A stretch of DNA of 26,488 nt from an uncultured Gemmatimonadota bacterium (GTDB lineage: Bacteria > Gemmatimonadota > Gemmatimonadetes > Gemmatimonadales > GWC2-71-9): assembly GCA_946887295.1 (NCBI GenBank), contig CAMPKP010000031.1, positions 1 through 26,488 on the forward strand, in the 5' to 3' direction. The translations under genes and the position numbers were made by a program. Below are positions 1 through 18,164 of the stretch, piece by piece. The notes beneath the pieces are model-generated. The model had not been told where the DNA came from and made no database searches. It was given only the letters and a program-made list of their open reading frames with translations. Numbering within the stretch: position 1 is the stretch's first letter; each line of letters opens with the position of its first letter.

Positions 1-3000
1 CCGGAGACCTGGCCTACGTGATGTACACGTCGGGCTCGACCGGCCGGCCGAAGGGGGTGGCGATCCCGCACCGCGGCATCGTCCGCCTGGTCTGCGGCAC
101 CGACTACGTCCAGCTGACCCCGGCGGACACCGTGGCCCAGGTCTCCAACATCACGTTCGACGTCGCCACCTGGGAGATCTGGGGGGCGCTGCTCAACGGC
201 GCGTCCCTGGTGGTCATCCCCAGGGAAGTGGTGCTGTCTCCACCCGCTCTCGCCGCCGAAATCCGCGACCGGGGGATCACCGCCATCGACGTGACCACGG
301 CCCTCTTCAACCAGCTCGCTCGCGACGTCCCCGGCGTGTTCCAGCCGGTGCGGCAGGTACAGCTGGGCGGGGAGGCGGCCGATCCGGGCTGGGTGCGCGA
401 GATCCTGGCCGACAAACCGCCCGAGCGCCTGATCAACAGCTACGGACCTTGCGAGTGCACCACCACCGCGACCTGGCATGAGGTCCGCCGGCTCCCAGCC
501 GATGCTATCACCGTGCCCATCGGCCGCCCCATCGCGAACACCCGTGCATACGTGCTCGACCGCTATCTGGAACCGGTGCCGGTGGGGATTCCAGGAGAGC
601 TCCATCTCGGCGGACCGGGTCTGGCGCGCGGCTACTTCGATCGGCCGGGGCTCACCGCCGAGCGCTTCATTCCCGACCCCTTCGGCCCGGAGCTCGGGCA
701 CGAAACAGGCGGCCGGCTCTACCGGACCGGAGACCGGGTACGCTGGCGGGCAGACGGCGAGCTCGAGTTCCTCGGCCGGTTCGATGGACAGATCAAGCTG
801 CGCGGCCACCGGATCGAGCCCGGTGAGATCGAAGCCGCGCTCCGCGAGCACCCGGCGGTGCGCGCGGCGGTGGTGGTCGCCCGCGACGATGAGCCCGTCG
901 GAAAGCGACTGGTGGCCTACGTCGTGCCGAGCGGGGCTGCGCTCGGGAGTGACGACCTGCGCCGCTTCCTGCAGCAGCGGCTGCCCGACTTCATGGTGCC
1001 GTCGGTCTTCATGGTCCTGGACGCCCTCCCGCTCTCGCCCAACGGCAAGCTGGACCGCCGGGGATTGCCCGCCCCCAGTGACGCGAGACCGGAGCTGGAG
1101 CAGGCCTTCGTCGCCCCCCGCGACCCGATCGAGGAGGTGGTTGCCGGCATCTGGGCCACGGTGCTCGGCGTCGATCGGGTGGGCATCCAGGACGACTTCA
1201 GCGCCCTCGGCGGGCACTCGTTGCTGGCCACCCAGGGCATCTCGCGCCTTCTGGCGGCGCTCGACGTCGATCTGCCGCTGCGCACGATCTTCGAGACTCC
1301 GACTGTGGCCGGTCTCGCGGAGCTGGTGACTTCCGCGCGCGACGGTCGGGCGCTCCTGCCGGCTCCGGCGGCGCGCGCCGAGCCCGGGCGGCGGCGGCTG
1401 CCACGGACCGACCCCGGCGCATCGGGGATCCCGCGGCGCGTGGGGTCGGGCCCCGCGCCGCTGTCCTTCGCGCAGCAGCGGCTCTGGTTCCTGGAGCAGC
1501 TATACCCCGGCACGCCCCTTCACAACGTCTCCCGCCTGATTCGGCTGAGCGGGGCGCTCGACGTGGCGGTGTTGCAGCGAACGCTCGACGCCATCGTGGC
1601 GCGGCACGAGGCACTGCGCACCACCATCGTGACGTCGAACGCCACCGCCATGCAGGTCATCGCGCCCCCCTCGAGCGTGTCGATCGAGCTCACCGACCTC
1701 AGTGGCCTCGAGGCACCGGAGGGCGAGGCCGAGGCCCGCCGGCTGACCTCGGAGGAAACCCGGCGGCCGTTCGATCTCGCTCGCGGCCCGCTCTTCCGGC
1801 CACGCCTGCTGCGGCTGGGAGCCGAAGAGCACCTGCTGCTGCTGACGATGCATCACATCATCAGCGACGGCTGGTCGCACGGTGTGCTCTCCCGCGAGCT
1901 GACGGCCTTCTACGAGGCGTTCGTCACCGGTGTCCCCGCGTCGCTGCCCGAGCTGCCGATCCAGTACGCCGACTACGCGGTCTGGCAGCGGGAGCGGCTC
2001 CAGGGGGAGCGGCTGGAGCGCGAGCTGGGCTACTGGCGGACGCAGCTTCGGGGTGCCCCGGCGGCGCTCGAGCTGCCGACCGACTACCCCCGCCCGCCGG
2101 TGCAGAGCTCTCGTGGAGCGAAGCAGGCGATTTCACTTTCGGCGGGCGTCACCCAGGCGCTGCAGGGCTTGAGCCGTCGCGAGGGCGTCACGCTGTTCGC
2201 GACCGTGCTCGCGGCGTTCCAGACCCTGCTCGCCCGCTACAGCGGCCAGGACGACATCGTGGTCGGCGCGCCCATCGCGGGGCGCACCCGGACGGAGACC
2301 GAGGGGCTGATCGGCTTCTTCGTCAACACCCTGGCCCTGCGGACCGATCTCTCGGGTGACCCGACGTTCCGCGAGCTGCTTCGGCGGGTGCGCAAGGTGA
2401 CGCTGGGAGCCTACGACCATCCCGACATCCCGTTCGAGCAGCTGGTGGAGGAGCTCCAGCCGGAGCGCGACATGAGCCGGACGCCGATCTTCCAGGTGGC
2501 GCTGGCGATGCAGAACGTTCCTGCTCACACGCTGGAGTTGCGGGGCCTGGTGCTGCGTCCCGAGGCGACCGACAGCGGGACCGCGAAGTTCGACCTCACC
2601 CTGTTCGTCCACCAGCAGGGGGCCGGGCTGAGGCTGGTGCTGGAGTATTGCACCGATCTGTTCGAGGCGGGCTCTGCCGCCCGGTTGCTGGGTCATTTTC
2701 GGACCCTGCTCGACGCGGTCGTCGCCGATCCGGACCGCCGGCTCTCGCAGCTGCCGCTGCTCACCGAGCCGGAGCGGCACCAGCTCCTGGTCGAGTGGAA
2801 CGCCACGGCGACCGACTACCCGAGCGACGCCACCATCGGGGAGCTCTTCGGCGCGCAGGCCGCCGGAGCCCCGGACGCCATCGCCGTAGTCTCCGGGAGC
2901 GAGCGGCTCACCTATCGCGAGCTCGATGAGCGAGCCAACCGGCTGGCCAACTATCTCCGGTCGCGGGGAGTGTGCGCCGAGGCCCGCGTCGCCGTCTGCC

Positions 3001-4679
3001 TCGACCGCTCGGCCGACCTCGTGATCGCGGTGCTGGGGGTGCTGAAAGCCGGGGGGACCTACGTGCCGCTGGACCCTGGCGACCCCCCCGGGCGCCTCGG
3101 GCTCCTGCTCGGCGATGCCGGGGTCGGCGTCCTCCTCACCGAGAGGCGGCAGCGCGAACGGTTGCCGTCCAGCTCCCTCGCATACACCATCTGCCTGGAC
3201 GAGGAGCGCGACGCGATCGCCGGTGAATCGAGCGAGCCGCCCCGCGTAGCGCTCGCCGGGCGACTCGCCTGCGTGATGTACACGTCCGGCTCGACCGGGA
3301 CGCCCAAGGGGGTGGCGGTCCCCCACCGGGCGATCGTGCGGCTGGTGCGGGGCACGGACTATTTCCAGGGCGGCCCGACGGAGACGTTTCTCCAGCTCGC
3401 CCCGATGGCGTTCGATGCGTCGACCTTCGAGATCTGGGGGGCGTTGCTGACGGGGGCGCGGCTGGTCATCGCTCCCCCGGGCACACTCAGCCTCGAGGAG
3501 ATCGGGCGGACGGTTCGGGAGCATGGCGTCAGCACGCTGTGGCTGACCGCCGGACTCTTCCACCTGATGGTGGACCGGGGCCTGGCGGATCTGCGGGGCG
3601 TGCGGCAGCTGCTGGCCGGCGGAGACGTGCTCTCGGTGGCGGACGCGGAGCGGGTGCTGCGCGAGCTGCCCCAGTGCCGGCTGGTCAACGGCTACGGGCC
3701 GACCGAGAGCACCACGTTCGCCAGCTGTCATGCCGTGGCCGCCGGCGGACTGCGGGGCTCGGTGCCCATCGGCCGCCCGATCGCGAACACCCGGGCGTAC
3801 GTGCTCGACGGCAACCTGTCGCCGGTGCCGGCAGGGTTGCCGGGCGAGCTCTATCTCGGGGGTGCGGGGCTGGCGCGCGGCTACCTGGGCCGGCCCGGGC
3901 TGAGCGCGGAGCGGTTCGTGCCCGATCCGTTCGGCCCCGCGTACGGCGGGGAGTTCGGGGGCCGGCTCTACCGGACCGGCGATCGCGCGCGCTGGCGGAG
4001 TGACGGGACGCTGGAGTTCCTCGGGCGCCTGGATGACCAGGTCAAGCTCCGCGGCCACCGGATCGAGCCCGGCGAGATCGAGGCCGCGCTCCGGGAGCAC
4101 GCGGGAGTGCGCACCGCCGCCGTTGTCGCACGGGAAGACCCGGCCGGTGAGAAGCGGCTCATCGCCTACCTGGTGCCGAACGGGCGGGCGCCCGGCCCGG
4201 ACGAGCTGCGAGCGTTCCTGCGACAGCGGCTGCCCGAGTTCATGGTGCCCTCGGCATACGTGGCGGTCGAGGAGTTTCCGCTGTCGCCCAACGGCAAGGT
4301 GGATCGTCGGGCCCTGCCGGCGCCGCCGGACTCGAGGGCCGGGCTGAAGGCGGACTTCGTTCCTCCAGCCGGTCCGATCGAGGAGCTGCTCGCCACCATC
4401 TGGATGGCGGTGCTGCGGGTCGGCCGTGTCGGCATCCACGACAACTTCTTCGAGCTCGGCGGGCACTCGCTGCTCGCCACCCAGGTGATGTCCCGCATCG
4501 TCGCGACGCTCGGAGTCGAGCTGCCGCTGCGCGCCCTCTTCGAGGCGCCGACCGTGGCCGGCCTGGCGGCCCGGCTGGCCGCGGCGCAGCAGAGCGGAGC
4601 ACCCGCGGAGGCTCCGGCACTCGTACCGGTCGCCCGCCAGAATTACCGCATGTCCAACGACGGAGGGAGGCAGGAGTGA
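1..4679 (+). CDS. Nonribosomal peptide synthetase, 3' part (A-PCP-C-A-PCP), 5' end outside the window
   Basis: An elongation subunit of a peptide assembly line. The reading frame is open from nt 3 and enters inside adenylation motif A3 ([11 protein letters not shown]), so the start lies upstream. Domain order: A1 to about nt 1075 (A8 [14 protein letters not shown]10 NGKLDRR); PCP1 (GGHSLL, phosphopantetheine Ser at nt 1218-1220); C domain about 1458-2760 (QQRLWF, active site HHIISDG at 1851-1871, LCL-like); A2 about 2820-4330; PCP2 (Ser at 4467-4469). The A2 pocket reads DAFWLGGTFK, a valine-type code. The A1 pocket reads DVWDQGSTTK, which I cannot match, and its A5 motif is GPCEC instead of GPTES. 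No epimerase is seen. The protein ends in a linker of about 40 residues that includes [11 protein letters not shown], which resembles the linker that normally precedes a C domain. The stop overlaps the MbtH gene start by 4 bases. Family assignment is certain; substrates are inferred. Confidence 0.97.
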
Positions 4680-4897
4680 CGGACCACGAGGACGACACCA
4701 CCATCTACAAGGTGGTCGTGAATCACGAGGAGCAGTACTCCATCTGGCCCGCGGACCGGGAGAACGCCCCCGGCTGGCGTGACGCCGGCACCAGCGGCAG
4801 CAAGGCGGAGTGCCTGGCCCACATCGAGCGGGTCTGGACCGACATGCGCCCCCTCAGCCTCAGGCTCCAGATGGATGGTGCCGACCGGAAGGCATGA
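4676..4897 (+). CDS. MbtH-like NRPS accessory protein
   Basis: A 73-residue MbtH-family protein, the chaperone or activator that binds adenylation domains. It shows the family signature: [10 protein letters not shown] near residues 16-25, GWRDAG, G.K.ECL, and VWTDMRP near 54-60. These include the invariant Trp residues. The GTG start at 4676 overlaps the upstream NRPS stop (GTGA) and lies just behind a purine-rich site (GGAGGGAGGCAGGA). Its own stop overlaps the ATG of the next NRPS (ATGA). This arrangement implies translational coupling and a fixed ratio of the three proteins. The position between two synthetase subunits is less usual than the start of the operon, but the family assignment is clear. 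Confidence 0.96.
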
Positions 4898-7800
4898 GCG
4901 ACGAGCGGTTCGTCTTCCCTGCCTCCTTCGCCCAGCGGCGGCTCTGGTTCGTCAGCCAGCTCGAGCCGGAGAGCGGCCTTTACAACGTGCCGATGACTCT
5001 CGCGCTGAGCGGGGGCCTCGATGTCTCCGCGCTGCGGTGCGCTCTGGCGGCCATCGTCGGCCGGCACGAGGCTCTCCGCACTACGTTCGCCCTGGCGGAT
5101 GGAGAGCCGGTGCAGATCGTGGGGCCGGGCCCGAATCTCGACCTGCCGGTGCAGGACGTGACCGCCATGGCCGAGGCGGAGCTTCAGCAATTCATCGGGG
5201 AGGAGGCGGACCGGCCCTTCGACCTCGAGCGCGGGCCGCTGGCTCGTGCGGTGCTGCTCCGGCGCGGAGCAGACGAGCACCTGTTGCTGCTGGCCTTCCA
5301 CCACATCGTCTTCGACGGCTGGTCGACCGGCGTGCTCTCCCATGAGCTGGGTGAGTTCTACGGCGCGTTCGCCTCCGGCTCGACTCCCCACCTGCCGGCC
5401 TTGCCGGTGCAGTACGGGGACTATGCCGTCTGGCAGCGGGACTGGCTCAAGGGCGAAGCGCTGGAGCGGCAGCTGGCCTACTGGCGCGAGCGCCTCGCGA
5501 GTCCTTCGCCCTCTCTGGAGCTCCCCGCGGACCGACCCCGCCCGCGGACCCGCACCCACCGCGGCGCCACCGAGGTGCTGGAGCTCGCTCCGGGCATCCT
5601 CGAGGGCCTGACCGCATTGAGCCGCCAGGAAGGCACTACGCTGTTCATGACGCTGCTGGCGGCGTTTCAGACGCTGCTGGCCCGCTCCGGCGGTGTGGCC
5701 GACGTGACCGTGGGCTCCCCCATCGCCAATCGCACCCGCAAGGAGCTCGAGCACCTCATCGGCTTCTTCGTGAACACGCTCACGCTGAGGACCGATCTCT
5801 CGGGCGATCCCTCCTTCCGCGAGCTGCTGGGCCGGACGCGCGAGGTGGCGCTCGGCGCCTATGCTCACCAGGACGTCCCCTTCGAGAAGCTGGTGGAGGA
5901 GCTTCGGCCAGAGCGCGCCGGCGACCGCAATCCGTACTTCAAGGTGATGTTCGCCCTGCAGAATGCACCGCGGGCACCGCTGAGCCTGCCCGGTCTGACG
6001 GTGCGGAGCCTCCCGGGTCGGACGACCACGTCCAAGTTCGATCTTACCCTCGCTGTGCGGGAGAAATCCGGCGGCCTGCGGGCGGGCATGGAATACAGCC
6101 TCGATCTGTTCGAGCCCGGCACCATCCGGCGGATGCTGGGCCACCTCGGAGTGCTGCTCGCGGAAGTGGTTGCCGACCCTGATCGGCGGCTGTCCTCGAT
6201 CCCGCTGCTCTCCCGCGAGGCGCGCAGCCAGGTGCTGGTGGAATGGAACCGGACGGATCGGGAGTATCCGCGCGACCGCGGCGTGCACGAGCTGTTCGAG
6301 GCCCGGGCGGCCGAGTGTCCCGACGCGACCGCCGTAGAGGCGGCAGGTGAGCGGGTCACCTATCGCGAGCTGAACGTCCGGGCCAACCGGCTGGCGCGGC
6401 ACCTTCGCCGTCGGGGCGCGGGGCCGGACGCGCGGATCGGGGTGGCGCTGGAGCGGTCCTCCGACCTCATAATGACGCTGCTCGCGGTGCTCAAGGCGGG
6501 CGCGGCGTACGTGCCGCTGGATCCGAGCTACCCGTCGGAGCGGCTGGCGTTGATGCTCGACGACTCGCGTGTGAGCGCGCTGGTGACCATGGGCGCGGGC
6601 CTGCCCGGCGTCCCGGCCGGCGTGGCGACGGTGAGGCTGGACCTCGACCGTGACGCCATCGCACAGGAGAGCGGTGACGACCTCGGCCTGGAGAGCCGGC
6701 CGGAGCAGCTCGCCTATGTGATGTACACCTCGGGATCGACGGGTCGCCCCAAGGGGATCGCCATTCCGCACCGGGCCATCGTTCGTCTGGTGTGGAACGC
6801 GGAGTACGTCCAGCTCACCCCTCAGGACCGGGTCGCCCAGATCTCCAACGCGTCGTTCGATGCCGCGACGTTCGAGATCTGGGGCGCGCTGCTCCAGGGC
6901 TCTCGCCTGGTGATCATCCCGCGGGACGTGGTGCTGTCTCCCCGCGACCTCGCGGCCGAGATCCGCGACCGCGGCATCACTGCGGCGTTCATGACCACGG
7001 CCCTGTTCAACCAGCTGGTGGGCGAGCTGCCCTCCGTGCTCGGGTCGGTGCGTCACGTCCTCTTCGGCGGAGAGGCGGCCGATCCCGGGCGGGTGAGGCG
7101 GTGCCTCGCCGAAGGCCCGCCCGAGCGACTGATCCACGTCTACGGACCGACCGAGTCCACCACGTTCGCCACCTGGCATCAGGTGCGGGAAGTCGCCGAA
7201 GACGATGTCACCGTTCCCATCGGCGTGCCGATCGGCAATACCCGCGCCTACGTGCTGGATCGTCACATGGAGCCCGTCCCGCTGGGCGTTCCGGGGGAGC
7301 TCTATCTCGGCGGGCCCGGGCTGGCGCACGGGTATGTGGGCCGGCCGGCGCTCACCGCCGAGCGCTTCGTGCCCGACCCTCACGGCTCCGAGCCGGGCGG
7401 CCGGCTCTACCGCACCGGTGACCTGGCTCGCCGGCGGGCGGATGGTGCGCTGGAGTTCATGGGGCGGCTGGACGCGCAGGTCAAGCTTCGGGGATTCCGC
7501 ATCGAGCCTGGAGAGATCGAGGCCGCGCTGACGCAGCACTCGGCGGTGCGCGAGTGCGCCGTGGTTCTCCGTGACGACTTGCCGAGTGGCCGGGGACTGG
7601 TAGCCTATCTGACGCGCGGGCAGCCCGAGTCCAGCGAAGCGAGGCCGGTTCCCGCCGCCGAGTCGCCGCTGGACCATCTCTCGGCGTGGCAGGCCGTGCG
7701 CGAGGAGCTGCCGATGCGCTCGTCCACCGGGCAGCCGATTCCGGAGGAGGAAGTGCGCGACCGGGCGGACCGGACCGCGGAGCGGCTGCTGCGGCTCGGG

Positions 7801-10095
7801 CCGCGTCGTGTCCTCGAGATCGGCTGCGGTACCGGGATGCTCCTCGAGCGAGTCGCTCCCCACTGCATCCGGTACGTGGCGACCGAGCACTCCGCGGCGC
7901 TGCTGGGCAAGGCGCAAAGCCGGGTCGGTGCGGCCGGCCTGGACAGCCGCGTAACGCTGCTCCAGCGGGACCTCGGGGACGTGACCGGGATCGAGAGCCA
8001 GAGTGTCGATATCGTCATCCTCGACTCCGTTGCCGGGTATTTCCCGACCATCGAGCATGTGGCCGGCCTGCTGGAGCGGATCACCCGGCTTCTGGCCCCC
8101 GGCGCCACCGTCTTCGTCGGCGGGGTGCGCAACCTGGAGCTGCTTGGCGCCTTCCATGCGTGGCAGGAGCTCCATCGCGCTCCGGCGACGATGCCGGCGG
8201 CGGAGCTGCGGCAGCGCGTTCGGAGCAGGGTGGCGGCCGAGTGCGAGCTGTGGATCGGCCCCGGCTTCTTCACCGCGCTGCCGCAACGCCTCTACCAGGT
8301 TCGACGAGTCGAAGTGATGCCAAGGCGCGGCCGCGGTGAGAGCGATCGGAATCCTTTCGAGTACGACGTTCTGCTGCACGCCGGCGATCCGGTCGCAACA
8401 CCCGAGCGAGCGCCGGCCTGGAGTGACTGGGAGGACGAGGAGTGGAGTGTCGACCGCCTCCGCCGAGCTCTGGAAGGAGAGCGGCCCGGGGTGTTGGCGC
8501 TCGGCCGCGTCCCGCACCCGCGCGCCGCGGCGCATGCCTGGACCGCGGCGGCGCTCGAGGCGGCGGATGCCTCGCTGACTGCCGGCGAGCTCGCCCAGAG
8601 TGGATCGATGATGCGAGAGCGTGGCGCGGACCCCGAGGCGTTCTGGGCACTCGGCGAGGCGCTTGGCTACCGGGTGGATATCAGCTGGGCAAGATGCGAC
8701 GCCGAGGGCCGGTACGATGCCCTGTTCCGCAGGTCCGGTGGATCACGGCATTCCGACATCGCCTGGCCGTCGGAGCATCGAGCTTCGCCGAGGTCGTGGG
8801 CCGACTACGGCAACCAGCCCGCGATGAAGACAGCGTCGGACCGCCTGATCCCGGCGCTGCGGGCTCATCTGCGCGAGCGACTGCCCGAGTTCATGGTCCC
8901 ATCGGCATTCGTGGTGCTCGATGCGCTTCCGTCCACACCCAATGGCAAGGTCGATCGCCGCGCGCTGCCGCCTCCTTCCGGCCTCGCGGCGGCGTCGCAC
9001 GCGGCGTTCGAGCCACCCCGCACGCCGGTCGAGAAGACCCTCGCCGGAATCTGGAGAGAGCTGCTGGGGGTCGAGGCGGTGGGACTGGAGGATGATTTCT
9101 TCGAGCTCGGCGGACACTCGCTGCTCGCGGTCAAGCTGTTCGCGGAGATCGAGCGGACCTTCGCCCGGAAGCTGCCCCTGTCGACCCTGTTTCAGGCAAC
9201 GACGCTTGGGCGGCTGGCCGACGTGCTCGCCAGGTCCTCGCCAGAGACCCCCGCTTCGGCTCTGGCCGTGCTGCAACCTCGGGGGTCACGGCCGCCGCTG
9301 TTCCTCGTCCATGGGGTCTACGGGGACGTGCTGGAGTACCGCGACCTGGTGAGCCGTCTGGATCCCGACCAGCCGGTGTACGGCATCGAGGCTCCCCACG
9401 GCGACGGTGAGGCGGTGCTCAGGACGATCGAGCAGCTGGCATCGGGGTACCTCCAGGAGCTGCGGCGGCAGCAGCCTGCGGGTCCCTACTTCCTGTGCGG
9501 CTATTGCTGGGCCGGTGCCCTGACCTTCGAGATGGCCAGGCAGCTCCACGAGGCGGGTGAGGACGTCGCTCTGGTCGCGCTCATCGACGCCGCCTGCCCG
9601 GGGAGCCTGCGTCCCCTCACGCTGGCGCTCAGGGCCGCACGCCGTGGCCGGAGCATCTGGGCTCGTGTCGGCCGCAACCTTCGTCGTCTCCCGGATCTGC
9701 ACCCGAAGGCGCTGCCGCTCTTCCTCTGGGAGCGGGCGGTGAATCTTGGCACCGAGCTGCTTGGAACGCTTGCGTACACCTGGTCGGTCCGGCTGCGAAA
9801 GCCGTTGCTCCCGGCATTCGGGCGTCGTCGCCAGGCGCTTCTGTATGCGGCCAAGTGCTACCGGCCGCCGGTGTATCCAGGTCGGGTCACCCTGCTGCGG
9901 GCTCGAACCTCCAGTCCGGCCACGGCCGGAAGCGCCATGTGGGGCTGGGATCGGGTGGCGGCGGGCGGGGTGGAGCTCCACGAGGTCCCCGGGGAGCACC
10001 ACGAGCTGCTGAAGGAGCCCAGGGTCGCCGGACTCGCCGCGACGCTTCAGGCATGCCTCGACCACGCCGCCGGAGACCGGCTGGAAGTACGCTGA
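4894..10095 (+). CDS. Terminal NRPS: C-A(with embedded methyltransferase)-PCP-TE
   Basis: A protein of 1733 residues that adds, methylates and releases the last residue. I chose ATG 4894 because it overlaps the MbtH stop and puts the C-domain motif SFAQRRLWF at residue 10. C domain about 10-440 (HHIVFDG from residue 136). A domain from about 457, with A3 [11 protein letters not shown] near 611 and pocket DAFFLGVTFK, an Ile/Val-like code. A methyltransferase of about 415 residues is inserted between A8 and A9, with SAM motif VLEIGCGTG at 973-981 and DSVAGYFP at 1044. The place and length fit NRPS N-methyltransferases. A9/A10 follow ([15 protein letters not shown]), then PCP (GGHSL, Ser1409). 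The thioesterase begins near 1465. Its nucleophile motif is GYCWAG with Cys1538 where Ser is usual. The likely Asp is in LIDAACPG and the His in [10 protein letters not shown]. Product tail inferred: Val-N-Me-Ile. Confidence 0.97.
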
Positions 10096-10102
10096 GGCGG
10101 TC

Positions 10103-10798
10103 GTGACGGCGACCGCGACCGTAGTTCTCTGGCGCGTGCACCTGAGTCAGGTGGCGGTGCAGCCCGGTCTGGCCGATTGCCTCGACGCAGATGAACGGGC
10201 TCGGGCCGTACGGTTTCACTTCCACCGCGACTCGTCTCGCTTCGTGGCCTATCGCGGCGCGCTCCGTCACATCCTGGGCCACTACCTGCGCCAACCCCCG
10301 GAAGCCGTGCGCCTGGGATATGCCTCCGCCGGAAAACCCTTTCTTCTCGATTTTCCCGAACTCCAGTTCAATCTCTCCCACGCCGGGGACCTGCTCCTCG
10401 TCGGGGTCTCGCGTGGCGGGCGGCTCGGCGTGGACATCGAGCGGATCCCTCCTGACTCCGTAGTGGACGAGACCAGCGGTCTCGTGCTGTCCGCCCCGGA
10501 GCGGGATCTGATGCGACGGCTGACCGGACAGGCGAGGCGTGCGCGGTTCGGCGCGATCTGGACTCGGAAAGAGGCCTACATCAAGGGCGATGGACGGGGC
10601 ATGGGACTCGAGCTCGATCTGATCGACGTCGCTACTTCGCCCGACCGGGTCCTGGTGCGAGAGCAGGGCTCGGATCGTTGGGCCACCTGCTCGACGTGGA
10701 CGCTCCGATCTCTCGAGATCGATCCAGGCTACTCGGCCGCCATCGCCGTGGAGGAAGCGGACTGGCGCCTCGAGCGGCTCGAGTGGCCGGGGCCCTGA
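10103..10798 (+). CDS. Sfp-type 4'-phosphopantetheinyl transferase
   Basis: A 231-residue enzyme that moves phosphopantetheine from CoA to the conserved Ser of carrier domains, here most likely the three PCPs encoded upstream. Family motifs are in order: GKPFLLDFPELQFNLSHAGD (P1/P2 region), the Mg-binding GVDIER near residues 112-117, and WTRKEAYIKGDGRGMG (P3, WxxKEA) near 153-168. Length matches Sfp/AcpT-type enzymes. The GTG start lies 7 bases after the NRPS stop, so it is probably the last gene of the operon. A dedicated PPTase makes the cluster self-sufficient for carrier activation. The next gene is convergent. Confidence 0.95.
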   Translation: MTATATVVLWRVHLSQVAVQPGLADCLDADERARAVRFHFHRDSSRFVAYRGALRHILGHYLRQPPEAVRLGYASAGKPFLLDFPELQFNLSHAGDLLLVGVSRGGRLGVDIERIPPDSVVDETSGLVLSAPERDLMRRLTGQARRARFGAIWTRKEAYIKGDGRGMGLELDLIDVATSPDRVLVREQGSDRWATCSTWTLRSLEIDPGYSAAIAVEEADWRLERLEWPGP

Positions 10799-12221: not shown

Positions 12222-12697
12222 CAGTCGGCCTCCACCGGCACGATGCCGGGCTTCTCGAACAGGGTGGAGAGCACGATCGTCGTCCGCGTGCTGGCCGGAT
12301 GGCCCGGTTGCTTGATCTCGCGCAGGACGCCTTCGAGGCTCTCGATCGAAGGGGCGGCGACCTTGAGGACGTAGCAGTCGTCGCCGGCCACGTGGTGGCA
12401 CTCGAGCACGTGAGGATTGGCCTCGAGGGCATCGAGCTGGGCCTCGTCGCCCGCGTTATCCGAGGCGGGATACCGGACCGCGACGAATGCGGTGACCGGA
12501 AACCCCGCCTTGGCGCGGTCGAGCCGGGCCTGATAGCCGAGGATGTAACCCGACTCCTCCAACCGCTTCACCCGCTCCATGACGGCCGGCCGGGACAGTC
12601 CGATCTCATCCGCGATCGCCTGGTAGCTGGCCCGGCCATCGGCCGAGAGGAGCTGGAGGATGCGTCGGGAGATGTGGTCCAGCGGATATGCGCTCAT
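12221..12697 (-). CDS. Lrp/AsnC-family transcriptional regulator
   Basis: A 158-residue regulator. The N-terminal helix-turn-helix spans about residues 6-50 (ISRRILQLLSADGRASYQAIADEIGLSRPAVMERVKRL, written here only as its ends ISRRILQ and AVMERVKRL). A RAM ligand-binding domain follows (VTAFVAVRYPAS, HHVAGDDCYVLKV, IVLSTLFEKPG). Proteins of this family bind amino acids and often control their own gene and an adjacent transporter. It is the first gene of a three-gene operon. The ATG lies 6 bases after AGGAGAAAG, and that ribosome site is one arm of an inverted repeat (see the operator). Family assignment is firm; the effector is unknown. Confidence 0.95.
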   Translation of the reverse strand: MSAYPLDHISRRILQLLSADGRASYQAIADEIGLSRPAVMERVKRLEESGYILGYQARLDRAKAGFPVTAFVAVRYPASDNAGDEAQLDALEANPHVLECHHVAGDDCYVLKVAAPSIESLEGVLREIKQPGHPASTRTTIVLSTLFEKPGIVPVEAD

Positions 12698-12700
12698 CGC

Positions 12701-12725
12701 TTTCTCCTATGCTTCGTAGGAGAAA
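12701..12725 (-). promoter_or_regulatory. Candidate Lrp autoregulatory operator overlapping the ribosome binding site
   Basis: A perfect 9-bp inverted repeat, TTTCTCCTA - 7 bases - TAGGAGAAA, starts 4 bases upstream of the lrp start codon. On the coding strand the downstream arm contains the Shine-Dalgarno sequence AGGAG. It may be a protein operator, an RNA hairpin hiding the ribosome site, or both. Confidence 0.6.
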
Positions 12726-12751
12726 ACTACATGGCGTCGACTATTCGTCAA
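12724..12751 (-). promoter_or_regulatory. Putative promoter of the lrp-eamA operon
   Basis: On the - strand there is a good -35-like hexamer TTGACG (12751-12746), 16 bases, then TAGTTT (12729-12724), a weak -10. The predicted transcription start would fall inside the 12701-12725 inverted repeat, consistent with self-repression. The -10 is a poor match, so confidence is modest. Confidence 0.4.
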
Positions 12752-12771
12752 CAGCCAAATATCGCCACGGA

Positions 12772-12793
12772 CTATTAGCAGGAGTAGGTACTT
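12772..12793 (+). repeat. Repeat copy a (half hairpin, CTATTAGCAGGAG.AGGTACT)
   Basis: A 21-base segment repeated in direct orientation at 13768-13788 with one mismatch (T/C). Its CAGGAGTAGGTACTTG part continues as CAGGAGTAGGTACTTGACGC and is also found inverted at 13749-13768, with one difference. It marks the left edge of the accessory island. Confidence 0.75.
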
Positions 12794-12870
12794 GACGCAC
12801 AGGGTATTGAAGACGGGGGTGGCGACCCGTAGCTTGAGTGTGCGGGGCGAGTTCCCGTAAGGAGGCCAGT

Positions 12871-12957
12871 ATGAAAGAGGTTTCCACCTGCGGGTGCACC
12901 AAGGGATGCTGTGATACGGGGTGCTGCTGCGGGACTAGCGCCTGTACCTGCGGCTAG
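12871..12957 (+). CDS. Cys-rich 28-residue peptide (metallothionein-like or modified-peptide precursor)
   Basis: A very small gene with a strong ribosome site (GTAAGGAGG) 7 bases before the ATG and an intrinsic terminator 19 bases after the TAG. The peptide starts MKEVST and has nine Cys in 28 residues, at positions 7, 9, 13, 14, 18, 19, 20, 25 and 27 (pattern CxC, CC, CCC, CxC). The other residues are mainly Gly and Thr, with no aromatic or hydrophobic core. The pattern resembles metallothioneins, which hold d10 metals or Cu(I) through CxC and CC clusters. A ribosomally made, Cys-modified peptide precursor is an alternative, but no maturation enzyme is visible nearby. I know no matching family. 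The complete ribosome site, ORF and terminator unit argues that it is real. Confidence 0.68.
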   Translation: MKEVSTCGCTKGCCDTGCCCGTSACTCG

Positions 12958-12975
12958 AGCGCAGGCGAAGACGAG

Positions 12976-13013
12976 AAGGCCGGGGCTACCTACCGCCTCG
13001 GCCTTTCTTGTTT
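12976..13013 (+). terminator. Intrinsic terminator of the Cys-rich peptide gene
   Basis: An 11-pair stem (AAGGCCGGGGC with GCCTCGGCCTT, one G-T pair) and an 8-base loop are followed by TTTCTTGTTT. It is a good rho-independent terminator on the + strand. It overlaps the 3' end of the opposing 60-residue ORF. Confidence 0.75.
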
Positions 13014-13168
13014 GGTGGCTTGGACCAGCCGCCCTTGGGCGGTGGCTTCTTGAGTGCCTTCCCGACGTTGCCCTCCCACGGCCCCGGTAGGACTAGCTTC
13101 TCCGGCTTTGGCCCCCGCTTCCGGGGTGGACTCCCCTTCGATCGTGCTCCCATCGGACCCCCGTCCAT
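12986..13168 (-). CDS. Small basic hypothetical protein downstream of the tRNA-like gene
   Basis: A 60-residue ORF from ATG 13168, about 32 bases downstream of the tRNA-like gene on the same strand. The sequence is rich in Lys, Pro and Gly. The segments RKRGPKPEKLVLPGPWEGNV and KALKKPPPKGGW look constrained, not random, and recall short hypothetical proteins with a GPKPE.L...W...A..AL..P.P..GW pattern. That recollection is not verified. It has only a weak ribosome site (GTGGAATCT). The same frame stays open upstream through the tRNA to about 13423, which I take as chance in GC-rich DNA. The stop lies within the terminator of the opposing Cys-rich gene. Function unknown; possibly a nucleic-acid-binding accessory protein. 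Confidence 0.42.
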   Translation of the reverse strand: MDGGPMGARSKGSPPRKRGPKPEKLVLPGPWEGNVGKALKKPPPKGGWSKPPNKKGRGGR

Positions 13169-13199
13169 AGATTCCACGCTGTGGGTTCGAGCTGCTGTA

Positions 13200-13284
13200 T
13201 GCGGTCGGCGGGACTCGAACCCGCAAGGGCTAGGCACCCAGGTAGCTTCCAAAGCTACTGCGTTTACAGTTTCGCCATGACCGC
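13200..13284 (-). tRNA. Divergent class-II-like tRNA, anticodon UGG (Pro by codon), possibly degenerate
   Basis: On the - strand a cloverleaf can be drawn. Acceptor GCGGTCA/CGACCGC has six pairs plus one A-C mismatch at the seventh. The D stem is GCG/CGC with a 10-base loop. The anticodon stem GTAGC/GCTAC encloses loop TTTGGAA, so the anticodon is TGG. A 17-base variable arm can form a 4-pair stem. The T arm GCGGG-TTCGAGT-CCCGC is perfect. The discriminator is A and no CCA is encoded. A long variable arm is a Leu/Ser/Tyr trait, while UGG is a Pro anticodon and normal Pro tRNAs have G37, here A37. The D loop has CTGT where G18-G19 is expected. It may be a mobile-element tRNA with altered identity or a decaying copy. 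Confidence 0.68.
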
Positions 13285-13312
13285 CACCCCGGGAAAAGCT
13301 TTTCCCGGGGTG
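13285..13312. repeat. Perfect 28-bp palindrome abutting the tRNA 5' end
   Basis: CACCCCGGGAAAAG is followed directly by its exact complement CTTTTCCCGGGGTG, with no spacer. It ends at the base before tRNA position 1. It could be a protein or recombination site, or a cruciform or processing signal. It lacks the loop of a normal terminator. Confidence 0.9.
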
Positions 13313-13457
13313 TTTGTTTACGTCTCCCCAAGGGCCGTCGTTCGCTGCCAACGGGGCAGAAAGTGCCGCAAGTGCTTCCTTCGGCTCCTCGTCAGGTTGG
13401 TCAAACAGCGGCATGATTTCCACCAGTCTGTCGTACAGGGCATCCGGGGTGAGCCTC

Positions 13458-13633
13458 TAGGAGATTGGCGCGCAGCTCATCCAGCTTGGCCTTAACGCCA
13501 GCGGGGGCCTCTATGTCGGCCAGTCCTACCTTGAAGGACGCGAAACACCCTCGTCTGCAAGAATGACCCGCCCTGTTCGGTTGAACAGGGTTAGATCCCC
13601 GGCCTCGTCCACGAAGTAGTGCTCGGTCTGCAC
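13458..13633 (-). pseudogene. DUF3800-family remnant, frameshifted and truncated
   Basis: A decayed N-terminal piece of a DUF3800 protein. From GTG 13633, preceded by GGAG, the frame reads VQTEHYFVDEAGDLTLFN and then RTGRVILADEGVSR. The acidic YFVDEAGD motif is the hallmark of the family, which has an RNase-H-like fold and is common on mobile elements. The frame then hits a stop at 13526-13528. One base is missing near 13537: the continuation SFKVGLADIEAP, then KLDELRANLL, lies in the next frame. After that the similarity stops, so most of the usual protein of about 250 residues is lost. Family assignment is from memory of the motif. Confidence 0.68.
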
Positions 13634-13750
13634 CGCTCCAACCTAGGCACCCCTCTCTAACTATCCACGTAGATAAGTGCAGATGCGGTGCAGTCATTAA
13701 TCACGCGGGGCTGCCAGACTGGCCCGATTCCGAACAAACCCCCGTGCGCC

Positions 13751-13789
13751 AAGTACCTACTCCTGGCTATTAGCAGGAGCAGGTACTCC
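13751..13789 (+). repeat. Repeat copy b (complete hairpin)
   Basis: Arms AAGTACCTACTCCTG and CAGGAGCAGGTACT(C) pair with one internal mismatch around the 8-base loop GCTATTAG. The right half plus loop is the direct repeat of copy a at 12772; the left arm is its inverted counterpart. Together they frame about 1 kb. Confidence 0.8.
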
Positions 13790-13930
13790 GCTATTTCGTC
13801 TTTAGGGGGACGCTGACCCCCAAAGACGTGGCGGCACGCTTGTCTGAGCGGATCAAGGGCTAGAGGCGTGACGCTCCGATCGGCGCGTTCACGGCTATGG
13901 TGGTCCTCATGAGACGGCTGGCCTCAGTCA

Positions 13931-13972
13931 CACCCAAAGAAGAAGGGCCGGGGGGAAGTAGCCCCCGGCCCT
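13931..13972 (-). terminator. Intrinsic terminator of the - strand receiver-like gene
   Basis: An 11-pair GC-rich stem (AGGGCCGGGGG at 13944-13954 with CCCCCGGCCCT at 13962-13972) has a 7-base loop. Read on the - strand it is followed by TCTTCTTTGGG, a T-rich tract. It lies 34 bases past the stop of the 14007-14450 gene. Confidence 0.75.
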
Positions 13973-14006
13973 GTCCGACCTTGCTGCACCTCCCCGCTGC
14001 ATGCAT

Positions 14007-14450
14007 TCACTCTGTCGGTGCATGCGCGGGCGAGAAGACGTCCTCCAAGGTGGCACCAGGGAGTCTGGGGACCAATCGTCGCTCGATGAGCGTGCTCACA
14101 GTGTTGAGGAGAAACTCCGGGCTGAACACCTCAGGAATCGTGAGCACATCATCGGGCAGGCCGTGAGGAATAGTCGAGCCGATATGCAGGATCTGGATCT
14201 CCGGACTCGCCTGGCGAACACGTCGGACAAGGCCACCGACGTCAATACCGGTCCCGTAGGTGTTCAGCACCAGCAGGGCGATTTTCGGCATCCTGCCGCA
14301 GAGCTCCTCGGCGGCGAGGCCGTCGTGGGCCTGGAACACACAGTAGTTGGCCATCCGTAGGAGTCCGGTGACCGACAACAACAGGGCGTTATAGTCGCAA
14401 ATCACGATGCGCCGCCCCTCGCTGGAGGGGACGGGGCGCTGGGACGACAT
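14007..14450 (-). CDS. Stand-alone receiver-like protein lacking the phospho-acceptor Asp
   Basis: A 147-residue protein with the fold pattern of a response-regulator receiver and no output domain. Strand 1 and the acidic site are RRIVICDYNALL near residues 13-24. Strand 3 reads ALLVLNTYGTGIDVGG, where the usual phospho-accepting Asp (LVLD) is Asn. The strand 4 switch position is ILHIGST. The conserved Lys before Pro at the end of strand 5 is absent (TIPEVFSPEFLL). It therefore probably cannot be phosphorylated in the normal way and may act by protein contact. It is transcribed away from a similar protein at 14690 and has its own terminator. The ATG has little ribosome-site support. Confidence 0.78.
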   Translation of the reverse strand: MSSQRPVPSSEGRRIVICDYNALLLSVTGLLRMANYCVFQAHDGLAAEELCGRMPKIALLVLNTYGTGIDVGGLVRRVRQASPEIQILHIGSTIPHGLPDDVLTIPEVFSPEFLLNTVSTLIERRLVPRLPGATLEDVFSPAHAPTE

Positions 14451-14498
14451 GTGAGGTCTTGCGTCCGGCGGAGACGGCCGGCCATGGCAGGGAGCTAT

Positions 14499-14524
14499 AG
14501 GGAATCTTCCTGGAAGATATCCCT
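14499..14524. promoter_or_regulatory. Interrupted palindrome in the region between two receiver-like genes
   Basis: AGGGA-A-TCTTCC-T-GGAAGA-TA-TCCCT: outer 5-bp and inner 6-bp inverted arms. It lies about 50 bases upstream of the - strand gene, close to a CCCTATAG stretch on that strand that could be a -10. Candidate operator; no binding protein is known. Confidence 0.4.
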
Positions 14525-14568
14525 GATTTGACTAGATAGATAGCTCAACCCACCCGCCTGAACCTCAC

Positions 14569-14600
14569 GTACTTGCTCCTGAGTACTAGCAGGGTAAGGG
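14569..14600 (+). repeat. Repeat copy c (diverged hairpin)
   Basis: GTACTTGCTCCTG, 8 bases (AGTACTAG), then CAGGGTAAGGG. It keeps the CTCCTG-8-CAGG core and loop length of copy b, and aligns with the reverse complement of b at most positions. It is the third member of the local repeat family, outside the roughly 1 kb unit. Confidence 0.5.
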
Positions 14601-14689
14601 CCTGAACTCCGAGCCTGGGGTATATTCAAGTAGTTGAAATCCCTCTGCTGCCTGCCTCTCCCGGGTGTCCTCCGGGTCCAAGGTTCACA

Positions 14690-15106
14690 ATGGACACAGG
14701 GTCTCCGCCCCACTACACCGGGCGGCACATCGTCGTGGCCGACGAGGATCCCAAGATGGTCGAGTTCGTCATCCGGACACTGCGCGAGGACGGCCACGCG
14801 GTGTTCCACGCCTATGACGTGCTCTCCGCGACCCAGCTGGCCATCGGCCTCGAGACTTGCGACCTGGTCATCAGCAACACGAAGGTCGAAGGGGCGGATG
14901 GCGTGGAGCTGGTGCTCTACCTTCGCAAGCGCCAGCCCGAGTTGCCGATCATCTACCTCGCCAACATCGGCCGGTCCACCCCGGAGGCCGAGGCTCAGCT
15001 CCCCCGGGACATCCCCATCCTGCGGGAGCCGTTCACCGCGGAGGATCTGCGAGGCACGGTGCACGCGATGCTCGACGGGGCGGGGCCGGCGAAGGGGCCG
15101 GGGTAG
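14690..15106 (+). CDS. Stand-alone receiver-like protein lacking the phospho-acceptor Asp
   Basis: A 138-residue single-domain receiver-like protein. The acidic site is HIVVADEDPKMVEF near residues 13-26. Strand 3 and the acceptor site are CDLVISNTKVEGADG, with Asn where Asp is expected. The switch region is IIYLANIGRS. The strand 5 end is ILREPFTAEDL, where Lys of the KPF motif is replaced by Glu. Both key residues for phosphorylation are thus changed, as in the 14007-14450 protein. The two share general layout, not close sequence. The ATG at 14690 has a weak AAGG site 7 bases upstream. A TATATT hexamer at 14621-14626 could be its -10. No histidine kinase is nearby. Confidence 0.85.
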   Translation: MDTGSPPHYTGRHIVVADEDPKMVEFVIRTLREDGHAVFHAYDVLSATQLAIGLETCDLVISNTKVEGADGVELVLYLRKRQPELPIIYLANIGRSTPEAEAQLPRDIPILREPFTAEDLRGTVHAMLDGAGPAKGPG

Positions 15107-15188
15107 CACCTTGGGCGTATCCCGCGTATCCCGCCACAGACTTCGGCAGGAGTCGCGCACAGCCTGAAGCAAGCCTAGGTTTCCGCCG

Positions 15189-18164
15189 GTGATTGCCCTC
15201 GCCTTGCTCGCGCTGCAGTCGTCACCCACCGCCCCGCCAGGCTCCTACTGGCAGCAGGACGTAGCCTACGAGATCACCGCCGCGCTCGACGAGCCCGCCG
15301 GTGTGCTCGCCGGCGGCGAGCGAATCCGCTACACCAACAACTCTCCCGACACCCTGGACGCCTTCGCGCTCCACCTCCACCTCAACGCATTTCGTCCCGG
15401 CTCCCGCTGGTCCGACGCCGACTCGGCGGAGGGCAAACGCCGGTTCAACGATCTGAAGGATCCGGACTACGGCTACAACCACGTGCGCGACGTGCGCATC
15501 ATGGGCGAGCCGGTGCAGCCGATCTATCCCTTCGCGCCCGACAGCACGATCGTCAGGTTTCCGCTCCCTCGGCGGTTGGCGCCCGGCGAGACGATGACCG
15601 TCGAGATGGCGTGGGACGCCCGGCCGTCCACCGTCCCGCGGCGTCAGGGCCGACGGGGCCGGCGCTTCGACTTCGCCCAGTGGTATCCCAAGGTGGTGGT
15701 GTACGACCGATACGGGTGGAACGAGCGGCCCCTCTATCCGGCGGGCGAGTTCTACGGCGAGTTCGGCAGCTTCACCGTGGACCTCGACGTGCCGGACGAT
15801 CAGGTGGTCGGCGCGACCGGTGTCCCGGTCTGCGGCGATCCGGGGTGGGAGCGGGCCAACCGGAATCCGTCGCGACCGGTGGAATATCTGCGCGACTACT
15901 ACGGTGCTTCGGCGCCGCCGGCGGACGCATGCGACGGTGCGGCGCGCGGCCGGAAGAAGATTCGGTGGTACGCGGAGAAGGTCCATCACTTCGCCCTGTC
16001 GCTGAGCCCCGACTACCGCTACGAGGGCGGACGGTTCGAGCGTACCGCCGTGCACGTGCTCTACTCGCCCGGAGACGAACCCACCTGGGGCGGGGGAGTC
16101 GCCGTCGAGCGGACCGAGCGGGCGCTCGCGTGGCTCGATCGGCTCTTCGGGCCGTTCGGCTGGCCCCAGCTCACCAATCTGCATCGGATCGAGGGCGGCG
16201 GTACCGAGTTCCCCATGGTGATCATGGACGGGTCCGCCGACCAGGGGCTCATCGTGCACGAGGGCGGCCACAACTACGTCATGGGCCTGCTCGCGAACAA
16301 CGAGTGGCGGGAGGGGTGGCTCGACGAGGGCTTCACCAGCTTCCAGACGACCTGGTTCTGGGAGGCGTCGGGACGGCCCAGCACGTATCCCGAGACCGAG
16401 GCCGAGGTGCTGCTCGCGGACCTGGACGGCCGCTCCGAGCCGCCCAGCCTCGTGGCCGAGGCGTATCGCGATTTCGACTCGTATCAGTCGGCGATCTACA
16501 CCCGCGGCGAGCTCTTCTTTCATCAGCTCCGGCACCTGGTGGGGGATGCCACGATGCACCGGATCCTTCGCGCCTTCTACGACCGGTGGAAGTACCGCCA
16601 CGTGGACGAGGCGGCGTTCCGCGCGGTCGCCGAGGAGGTGTCGGGCCAGGATCTCTCCACGCTCTTCGCCCAGTGGCTGCACACCACGGAGCTCTACGAC
16701 TACGGTGTGGGCCGGGTGAAGCGGGAGCGGCGGGGAGACGGATGGGTCACCCGGATCGAGGTCGTGCGCCGCGCGCCGGGCCGGTATCCGGTGGACGTCG
16801 CGGTGCTGGCCGACACCGACACCGCCGTGACCCGCTCGACGGGACTGGCGGAGCGCGAGTGGGTGGAGGTGGGCACCCTGAGCGAGCCGCGGGAGATCCT
16901 GCTCGACCCGCTGGGGCGCGGCCACGACTGGAACATGCTCGACAACCGCCGCGAGCTGCGCTTTCGGCTCCGGTCACTGGTCGCGCCTTACGCCGGCTCC
17001 GAGATCTACTTTCACCCCTACTTCACCACCCGGAGCCGCCGCGACCGCATGACGGTCGGCTTGCACCCGACTCTCTGGTACAACGACGGCGGAGGGATCA
17101 CCCTGGGCGTCGGGAGGCGCAGCGACTATCTCGGCCGGTACGAGCAGAACGTCGCGCTGCTTTCCGTCGGTACCGGGTGGGGAGCCGAGGACGACACACC
17201 CGACGCCGATCTCTTTCTGCGGGTCAGGAATCCCGTCTTCCTGCGCGCACCCAACACGTCGGAGACTTTCGATCTCTTCGACGTCGAGGGCCGCTTCGGC
17301 GCGACGATCGGCGTCGAGCGGCAGCGGCACGTCGGCCGCGCCGCGCTCTGGTCGCATGCCCTCACGCTCCAGTGGGTGCACCCCGACGATTTCCGCTATC
17401 TCGACCGCGGCTACTACGACCGCGCGGGGACGGTGGAGCTGCGGGCCACGAACGCGGTGAACGCCCGGCGCGGCGGCTGGGCGCTCGGCTTCGAAAGCTC
17501 GCTGGGCGGGGGACTGGCCTACGATCGAGCGGGCCTCGCGGCGAGCGGCCGGCCGGACCTGGATCAGTTCTACTTCCGCGGCACTCTCGAAGGCACGGCG
17601 CGCCGGGCGATCGCGAAGCGGCTCGATCTCGGGATGAGAGCGTTCGCCGGCGTTGCGGGGGGACGGCACGATGCGGCCAAGCAGCGCCAGATCTACTTCC
17701 AGGGCGCCGACCCGCTGGAGCAGCTGGGCAATCCCTTTCTTCGCTCGCGCGGCTCGCTGCTCCGGGGCGAGGACGTCCGCTATCAGATGCCGGGTGGCGC
17801 AGGCGTGCGCGGCGCCGATCCTCGGCTCTCGACCGGGGGCGTCGTCGCGCTCGGCCTGGAGCTGGAGCGCACCGTGCTGGCCCGCCCTCAGGCGCGGCTC
17901 TTCAGCCGGGTCGGGGTCGCGCTGTTCGGCGATCTCTCGCACGCGCTCGACGACACCGCTCTCGCGCCGCTCGCCGATCCCGTCGGATTTCTGGCCGACG
18001 CGGGCATCGGCTTCCGGGCGGATCATCGCATCGGCGACACCCGGTTCGTGACCCGGCTCGACCTGCCGCTCTGGTTCAGCAGGCCCGAAGCCGCCCACGA
18101 CCGGTCGCCGGGAGACGGCGAGCTCGCGCTCCGCTGGGTTCTCGGCTTCGAGCCGGCGTTCTGA
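15189..18164 (+). CDS. Secreted M1-family zinc aminopeptidase with barrel-like C-terminal region
   Basis: A 991-residue protein. The N-terminal half is a gluzincin: GGTEFPM at 337-343 stands for the exopeptidase GxMEN motif. HEGGH at 357-361 with E380 18 residues further on (WLDEGF) forms the zinc site. YTRGELFFHQL carries the likely transition-state Tyr. The last 380 residues or so contain many alternating, aromatic and Gly-rich short strands (TVGLHPTLWY, ITLGVGRRSDY, LELRATNAV-like stretches) and end in EPAF, a terminal Phe as in outer-membrane barrels. This suggests a peptidase anchored at the outer membrane. GTG 15189 is the only start after the in-frame stop at 15165. The leader MIALALLALQSSPTA is short and lacks basic residues, so export by a normal signal peptide is likely but not ideal. 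Confidence 0.88.
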   Translation: MIALALLALQSSPTAPPGSYWQQDVAYEITAALDEPAGVLAGGERIRYTNNSPDTLDAFALHLHLNAFRPGSRWSDADSAEGKRRFNDLKDPDYGYNHVRDVRIMGEPVQPIYPFAPDSTIVRFPLPRRLAPGETMTVEMAWDARPSTVPRRQGRRGRRFDFAQWYPKVVVYDRYGWNERPLYPAGEFYGEFGSFTVDLDVPDDQVVGATGVPVCGDPGWERANRNPSRPVEYLRDYYGASAPPADACDGAARGRKKIRWYAEKVHHFALSLSPDYRYEGGRFERTAVHVLYSPGDEPTWGGGVAVERTERALAWLDRLFGPFGWPQLTNLHRIEGGGTEFPMVIMDGSADQGLIVHEGGHNYVMGLLANNEWREGWLDEGFTSFQTTWFWEASGRPSTYPETEAEVLLADLDGRSEPPSLVAEAYRDFDSYQSAIYTRGELFFHQLRHLVGDATMHRILRAFYDRWKYRHVDEAAFRAVAEEVSGQDLSTLFAQWLHTTELYDYGVGRVKRERRGDGWVTRIEVVRRAPGRYPVDVAVLADTDTAVTRSTGLAEREWVEVGTLSEPREILLDPLGRGHDWNMLDNRRELRFRLRSLVAPYAGSEIYFHPYFTTRSRRDRMTVGLHPTLWYNDGGGITLGVGRRSDYLGRYEQNVALLSVGTGWGAEDDTPDADLFLRVRNPVFLRAPNTSETFDLFDVEGRFGATIGVERQRHVGRAALWSHALTLQWVHPDDFRYLDRGYYDRAGTVELRATNAVNARRGGWALGFESSLGGGLAYDRAGLAASGRPDLDQFYFRGTLEGTARRAIAKRLDLGMRAFAGVAGGRHDAAKQRQIYFQGADPLEQLGNPFLRSRGSLLRGEDVRYQMPGGAGVRGADPRLSTGGVVALGLELERTVLARPQARLFSRVGVALFGDLSHALDDTALAPLADPVGFLADAGIGFRADHRIGDTRFVTRLDLPLWFSRPEAAHDRSPGDGELALRWVLGFEPAF

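Follow-up and report, generated by a model that had tools for sequence, protein, structure and literature searches.

The stretch of DNA analysed here, called the window throughout, comprises 26,488 nucleotides (G+C 69.6%) from an uncultured, soil-type Gemmatimonadota bacterium (assembly GCA_946887295.1, contig CAMPKP010000031.1). On its plus strand, positions 12871-12957 hold a micro-ORF of 28 codons running from ATG to TAG, the predicted product of which is MKEVSTCGCTKGCCDTGCCCGTSACTCG. Nine of the 28 residues, or about every third, are Cys (positions 7, 9, 13, 14, 18, 19, 20, 25 and 27). They are spaced as CxC-x3-CC-x3-CCC-x4-CxC, and the peptide is devoid of aromatic residues and His (F/W/Y/H = 0). 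The count bears out the first-pass annotation of this DNA, which had described about a third of the residues as Cys in CxC, CC, CCC and CxC groups. A Shine-Dalgarno sequence, AAGGAGG (12859-12865, plus strand), precedes the ATG with a 5-nt spacer, and a terminator-like hairpin with a T-rich tail (12975-13013, plus strand) follows the stop codon.

The micro-ORF lies in the interval between genes for an Lrp-family regulator and an M1 peptidase (12697-15189). The first recognised plus-strand gene after it encodes a response regulator and is found 1.7 kb further on. Four unrecognised plus-strand frames of 89-119 aa occupy the space between the two, with zero Pfam matches, and the minus strand of the same space carries a tRNA-Pro, the only element matched in an Rfam scan, and a 55-aa ORF rich in Lys, Pro and Gly (12986-13153), which opposes the micro-gene and has no Pfam match. 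A further minus-strand frame (13401-13697), also without a Pfam match, resembles a decayed gene by eye. The left part of the window (18-10798, plus strand) is taken up by NRPS genes followed by a 4'-phosphopantetheinyl transferase.

A frame of this kind could arise by chance in GC-rich DNA, as TGC-rich repeats often give Cys-dense frames and a loose DNA pattern for seven of the Cys is found in at least 120 stretches of viral contigs. On either strand of the window, a search for ORFs of 15-60 aa in which Cys makes up 25% or more recovered only the micro-ORF and its in-frame GTG extension. Shuffling of the whole window with dinucleotide composition preserved (200 replicates) gave some ORF of at least 25% Cys in 8/200 cases, but such an ORF was paired with a Shine-Dalgarno-like site in 0/200, and an ORF with at least nine Cys at 30% or more likewise appeared in 0/200. 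The strong ribosome site and short Cys-rich ORF proposed in the first-pass annotation are thus supported. A chance origin is already contradicted by these controls and by the mostly silent changes of the relative described next, and we regard it as extremely improbable.

The relative was found by scanning the genomes of 84,980 species for the first seven Cys in precisely this spacing, the codons allowed between them being restricted so as to exclude TGC repeats; the scan covered contigs of at least 3,000 bases and misses relatives with shifted spacing. It returned 19 stretches with 20 matches, and a single true relative among them: stretch L140, on contig JAICPP010000119.1 of a Gemmatimonadales MAG (hereafter G001), with E = 7e-9 when the peptide was used as query. 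The other 18 stretches were dismissed as non-relatives on inspection by eye. The G001 peptide, MMEVKSCGCIKGCCDTGCCCGTGACTCG, is identical to that of the window in length and in the spacing of its nine Cys, and shares 23/28 residues with it. The two copies share every one of the nine Cys, the core KGCCDTGCCCG and the non-Cys residues K11, D15, T16, T22 and T26. The two ORFs differ at 18 nucleotides, distributed 2/4/12 over the three codon positions, and 9 of the 14 changed codons are silent (dN 0.12; dS 1.30 over 17 silent sites; dN/dS about 0.09). When the same substitutions were scattered randomly in 20,000 trials, at least 23 identities were retained in 0.03% and all nine Cys in 0.11%. Judged by this substitution pattern, the comparison, although of two sequences only, shows the micro-ORF to be a protein-coding gene under purifying selection. 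The genuine micro-gene suspected at the outset has thereby gained a relative with silent-change bias, in which the frame is intact and nine of nine Cys keep their spacing; a lack of homologs with that spacing had been named among the grounds for rejecting it. With a family of two members, little can be said about how strongly any one residue is constrained.

DNA similarity between the two copies is limited to the leader and ORF (12830-12955, plus strand; 126 nt, 78% identity), and the neighbouring genes differ; the conserved unit, as aligned, is the leader plus the ORF. In G001 the ribosome site reads AGGGAGG at an identical distance from the ATG. A one-base gap in the alignment breaks the frame upstream of the ATG at 12871, making this ATG the likely start; the in-frame GTG at 12838 is for that reason probably not used. 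When the leader was folded alone, a hairpin formed by 12841-12847 with 12853-12859 (plus strand) was predicted at the same place in both copies, enclosed by a four-pair outer helix (12832-12835 with 12863-12866). This helix would cover the Shine-Dalgarno sequence; its outermost pair, G-C in the window, is replaced by A-U in G001. The leader folds are no more stable than shuffles (z = -0.7 and -0.5). Once the ORF is folded along, the outer helix is absent from both minimum-energy structures and the leader hairpin is left in G001 only. Conservation of the leader hairpin is accordingly tentative, because the hairpin is lost in the window when the ORF is included, and translational gating by the leader is only a suggestion.

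The hairpin downstream of the ORF (12975-13006, 12 pairs) begins 17 nt after the stop codon and overlaps the end of the opposing 55-aa ORF. A terminator scan called 2 sites in 900 bases against 0.7 on average in shuffles, and the hairpin stretch folds at z = -2.97, with equally stable structures in 2/200 shuffles. A terminator belonging to the micro-gene, as first proposed, is uncertain. The hairpin and its T-rich tail are present in the window, but no plus-strand terminator was called at the G001 copy. Another relative, G233, possesses DNA homologous to 12968-13069 (81% over 102 nt), hairpin included, without the micro-gene, and the terminator scan makes no call there.

Upstream of the leader, a repeat motif (CTATTAGCAGGAGTAGGTACTTGACGCAC..., 12772-12809, plus strand; also at 13735-13788) occurs in direct and inverted copies; with up to 3 mismatches allowed it matched 3 times, and 100 shuffles gave 0 matches. 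Further copies lie upstream of the Lrp gene in G233 and close to the Lrp homologs in G009 and G050. Its 17-base core was found at one mismatch in 4/61 genomes and is absent at one mismatch from G001. The motif is a candidate operator or promoter element. No sigma-70-type promoter was called at either copy. A weaker palindrome is visible by eye near 14575.

Cys runs followed at short distance by a terminator-like hairpin recall the Cys-rich regulatory sORFs that act as attenuators in mycobacteria (Canestrari 2020, as cited in the part of PMC9094748 consulted) and CruR, presented as a Cu-sensing uORF in the consulted part of PMC9426467. The micro-ORF might by analogy encode a leader peptide, the translation of which senses cysteine or metal while the hairpin attenuates a downstream gene. 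The sORFs and CruR resemble the micro-ORF as short Cys-bearing frames, but they sit upstream of the gene that they regulate (same excerpts of PMC9094748 and PMC9426467), whereas the micro-ORF has no close recognised co-directional gene. Unrecognised plus-strand frames do lie nearby, namely the four of the window and one of 167 aa in G001, but none of these has a Pfam match; the first recognised plus-strand gene after the micro-ORF in the window is reached only past the minus-strand tRNA.

The G001 copy lies upstream of rpsM-rpsK-rpoA, which read away from the micro-gene, and pyrF, the next recognised gene, stands beyond on the minus strand. The 167-aa frame downstream overlaps a minus-strand frame that is likewise without a family above the cut-off. 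When the 10 frames of this 9.4-kb contig were compared with NCBIfam at E<=1e-10, 4/10 had no family; four frames were searched against Pfam, and only pyrF scored above its family cut-off. A minus-strand frame at 8265-8681 was not assigned to a recognised family. Attenuation is further weakened by the hairpin-homologous DNA of G233, which lacks the ORF, by the missing plus-strand terminator call in G001 and by the conservation of non-Cys residues in the peptide. Since no recognised co-directional gene is close by at either copy, we consider an attenuator improbable.

The same neighbourhoods bear on the possibility, also raised in the first-pass annotation, that the ORF encodes the precursor of a ribosomally made, post-translationally modified peptide (RiPP), with maturation enzymes encoded elsewhere. 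Short Cys-rich ORFs are in keeping with it, and putative six-Cys precursors linked to DUF692 have been described from soil (consulted part of PMC8692599). A search for linked maturation enzymes had been recommended; no maturase was recognised among the scanned frames of the window or the 10 frames of the G001 contig, and MNIO/DUF692 (PF05114) was detected in 0/3 genomes, the control being positive in 2/14. Moreover, nearly the whole peptide is conserved, which leaves no separate leader part. In view of the missing maturase beside either copy, a RiPP precursor appears very unlikely.

By sequence, the peptide is outside every described family searched. Pfam, NCBIfam and PADLOC gave zero families, although HMMER is weak on 28-residue Cys-rich queries and this absence is soft; PDB chains gave zero matches, short Cys-rich queries being handled poorly there as well. 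A protein database queried with a set containing the G001 relative returned zero matches, and literature queries on the smallest or a 25-residue metallothionein returned zero papers, the peptide being described in no literature examined. The initial remark that no described family resembles it is consistent with the Pfam, NCBIfam and PDB results, within the softness of such searches for a query of this kind.

Metallothioneins are defined as very small proteins of which about a third of the residues are Cys, clustered as CxC or CC, without aromatic residues. The beta domain of vertebrate metallothioneins has nine Cys, single nine-Cys domains being of about 30 residues and free of aromatics, and metallothioneins of the SmtA type are larger than 28 residues. 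The peptide shows the same composition: very small, about a third Cys, CxC and CC clusters and no aromatics. Because it offers nine thiols in 28 residues and neither aromatics nor His, a single metal-thiolate cluster fits it. Our preferred reading, drawn from composition and spacing, is that the gene stands alone and encodes a cytosolic metal-thiolate peptide, metallothionein-like and of a single domain; we assign this a probability of about 0.58. Once translated, the peptide would wrap its nine thiolates around a small metal cluster, possibly of about three divalent ions (Zn or Cd) or of several Cu(I), and the metal would be buffered or detoxified by this cluster. The weakest step of the model is that the leader helix over the Shine-Dalgarno sequence may gate translation. 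Counted against the metallothionein-like reading are the lack of a recognised metal gene nearby in either genome, the zero matches to a metallothionein family or a solved structure, and the CC and CCC runs, since classic metallothioneins more typically have CxC. The metallothionein-like character first suggested is hence retained as the best reading of composition and Cys spacing, without a match to any metallothionein family model.

A parallel in organisation is offered by the beta1 domains of mollusc metallothioneins, which also hold nine Cys in one small domain and are described in the consulted part of PMC9781358 as binding three divalent ions. The spacing given there for Nautilus beta1, [CxC]x3[CxC]x3Cx5[CxC]x3[CxC], differs from the CxC-x3-CC-x3-CCC-x4-CxC of the peptide, which is in addition bacterial and free-standing; the two are set apart here by their descriptions and not by direct sequence comparison. 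Among bacteria, SmtA-type metallothioneins are similar in being Zn-thiolate proteins but have a zinc-finger core and commonly His (PMC10612145, consulted in part), whereas the peptide lacks His and matches no Pfam family. MymT, the mycobacterial metallothionein, was likewise a small Cys-rich ORF overlooked at first by annotation. It is described as a 4.9-kDa protein needed for Cu resistance (PMC7558416, consulted in part), which distinguishes it from a peptide known from its sequence alone and compared by description. One search of the literature on metallothioneins in Gemmatimonadota turned up no described metallothionein in the parts of the texts consulted. If metal binding is confirmed, the peptide would be a free-standing single-domain metallothionein of 28 residues and a minimal model for thiolate clusters.

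Conservation outside the Cys positions might point to a role more specific than that of a metal store. A small regulatory or redox peptide, working through its thiols or by binding Zn, as the partner of a larger protein or as a thiol/persulfide buffer, would be compatible with the identity of K11, D15, T16, T22 and T26 in both copies and with the sporadic distribution of the gene. The frames scanned around the two copies, in the window and in G001, included neither a recognised partner gene nor a recognised metal gene, and nothing specific points to such a role, which we regard as unlikely. A more far-reaching version of the metallothionein-like reading would see in the peptide the first representative of a new family of bacterial metallothioneins, restricted to one lineage, built around a single cluster and ranking with the smallest known, with a structured leader masking the Shine-Dalgarno sequence and translation switched by a metal or thiol signal. 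In its entirety this proposal seems quite unlikely to hold. Were it true, such genes would be shorter than gene callers usually accept and would go unnoticed in phyla that have received little study. As it stands, the micro-gene is real, evolutionarily constrained and easily overlooked, and it illustrates that genes of fewer than 30 codons are recognisable by Cys spacing and silent changes though the protein database gave nothing.

The micro-gene is rare in the order Gemmatimonadales. A profile built from the two sequences and run on 288 genomes of the order matched 12/288 at E<=0.1, namely G001 and 11 non-relatives, and the 287 genomes other than G001, from which the sample was reached, yielded no relative. 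Among 395 Gemmatimonadota genomes including G001, 42 matched the peptide at E<=1 and only G001 fell below 0.02. Of 45 matches in the phylum, 30 had a locus that could be viewed on both strands, and the 29 loci other than that of G001 contained no second relative; apart from the 15 weak matches without a locus, the 394 genomes of the phylum sample besides G001 thus have no confirmed copy. At the DNA level, the leader and ORF of G001 matched 68 of 101 genomes at E<=1 and only the match to G001 was real; the next-best was 28 nt long (E = 0.0017), and the remainder of the 68 were not viewed singly. These absences are soft because the genomes look like draft assemblies.

Outside the phylum, a sample centred on Dechloromonas gave a match in 1/299 genomes, which is not a relative, and samples centred on Acidicapsa (0/297) and Streptomyces (0/296) contained no known-positive genome, so that their zeros are uninformative. 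Plasmids and phages gave no relative by tblastn, where the low-complexity filter may mask the peptide, and blastn found nothing other than one 32-nt match at E = 0.3. In viral contigs the profile pointed to 56 pattern stretches, 0 of which were confirmed by tblastn. The stretches found there with the loose seven-Cys pattern were by eye mostly TGC-rich low-complexity frames and none was peptide-like, frames of at least 90 codons being viewed only in part. A stricter pattern, which required the other codons to begin with a base other than T, left 18 stretches and no relative by eye, two long frames being viewed partly.

Silent divergence between the two copies (pS 0.62) is close to that of the DUF885 genes compared between these genomes (pS 0.57), while non-silent divergence is lower (pN 0.11 against 0.20). 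With this pattern an old divergence with relocation and loss fits better than a recent transfer, although 17 silent sites cannot decide the matter. Among 61 genomes, the best matches to the neighbouring Lrp and DUF885 genes of the window belong to G092 (87% and 91%) and G233 (86% and 89%). G092 is in the same order as G001, which suggests that the window too stems from this order of Gemmatimonadales; the contig of G092 stops 140 bases past Lrp. None of the four relatives in which the surroundings of Lrp were compared (G233, G009, G050 and G229) has the micro-gene there; in G233, Lrp and its upstream motif are followed by a frame that by eye is response-regulator-like. The interval from Lrp to the M1 peptidase is variable, with about 2.5 kb in the window, 1.2 kb in G050 and 0.55 kb in G229, and response-regulator-like frames lie inside it in the window and, by eye, in G050.

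Two of the stretches inspected belong to longer Cys-rich proteins. The Planctomycetota MAG stretch L139 (5111-5153) falls in a frame of 248 codons in which CC/CxC motifs recur and which by eye encodes another kind of Cys-rich protein, and the Oscillospiraceae MAG stretch L152 (3575-3617, minus strand) belongs to a non-related, acidic Cys-rich protein of 117 aa with, by eye, a hydrophobic N-terminal stretch.
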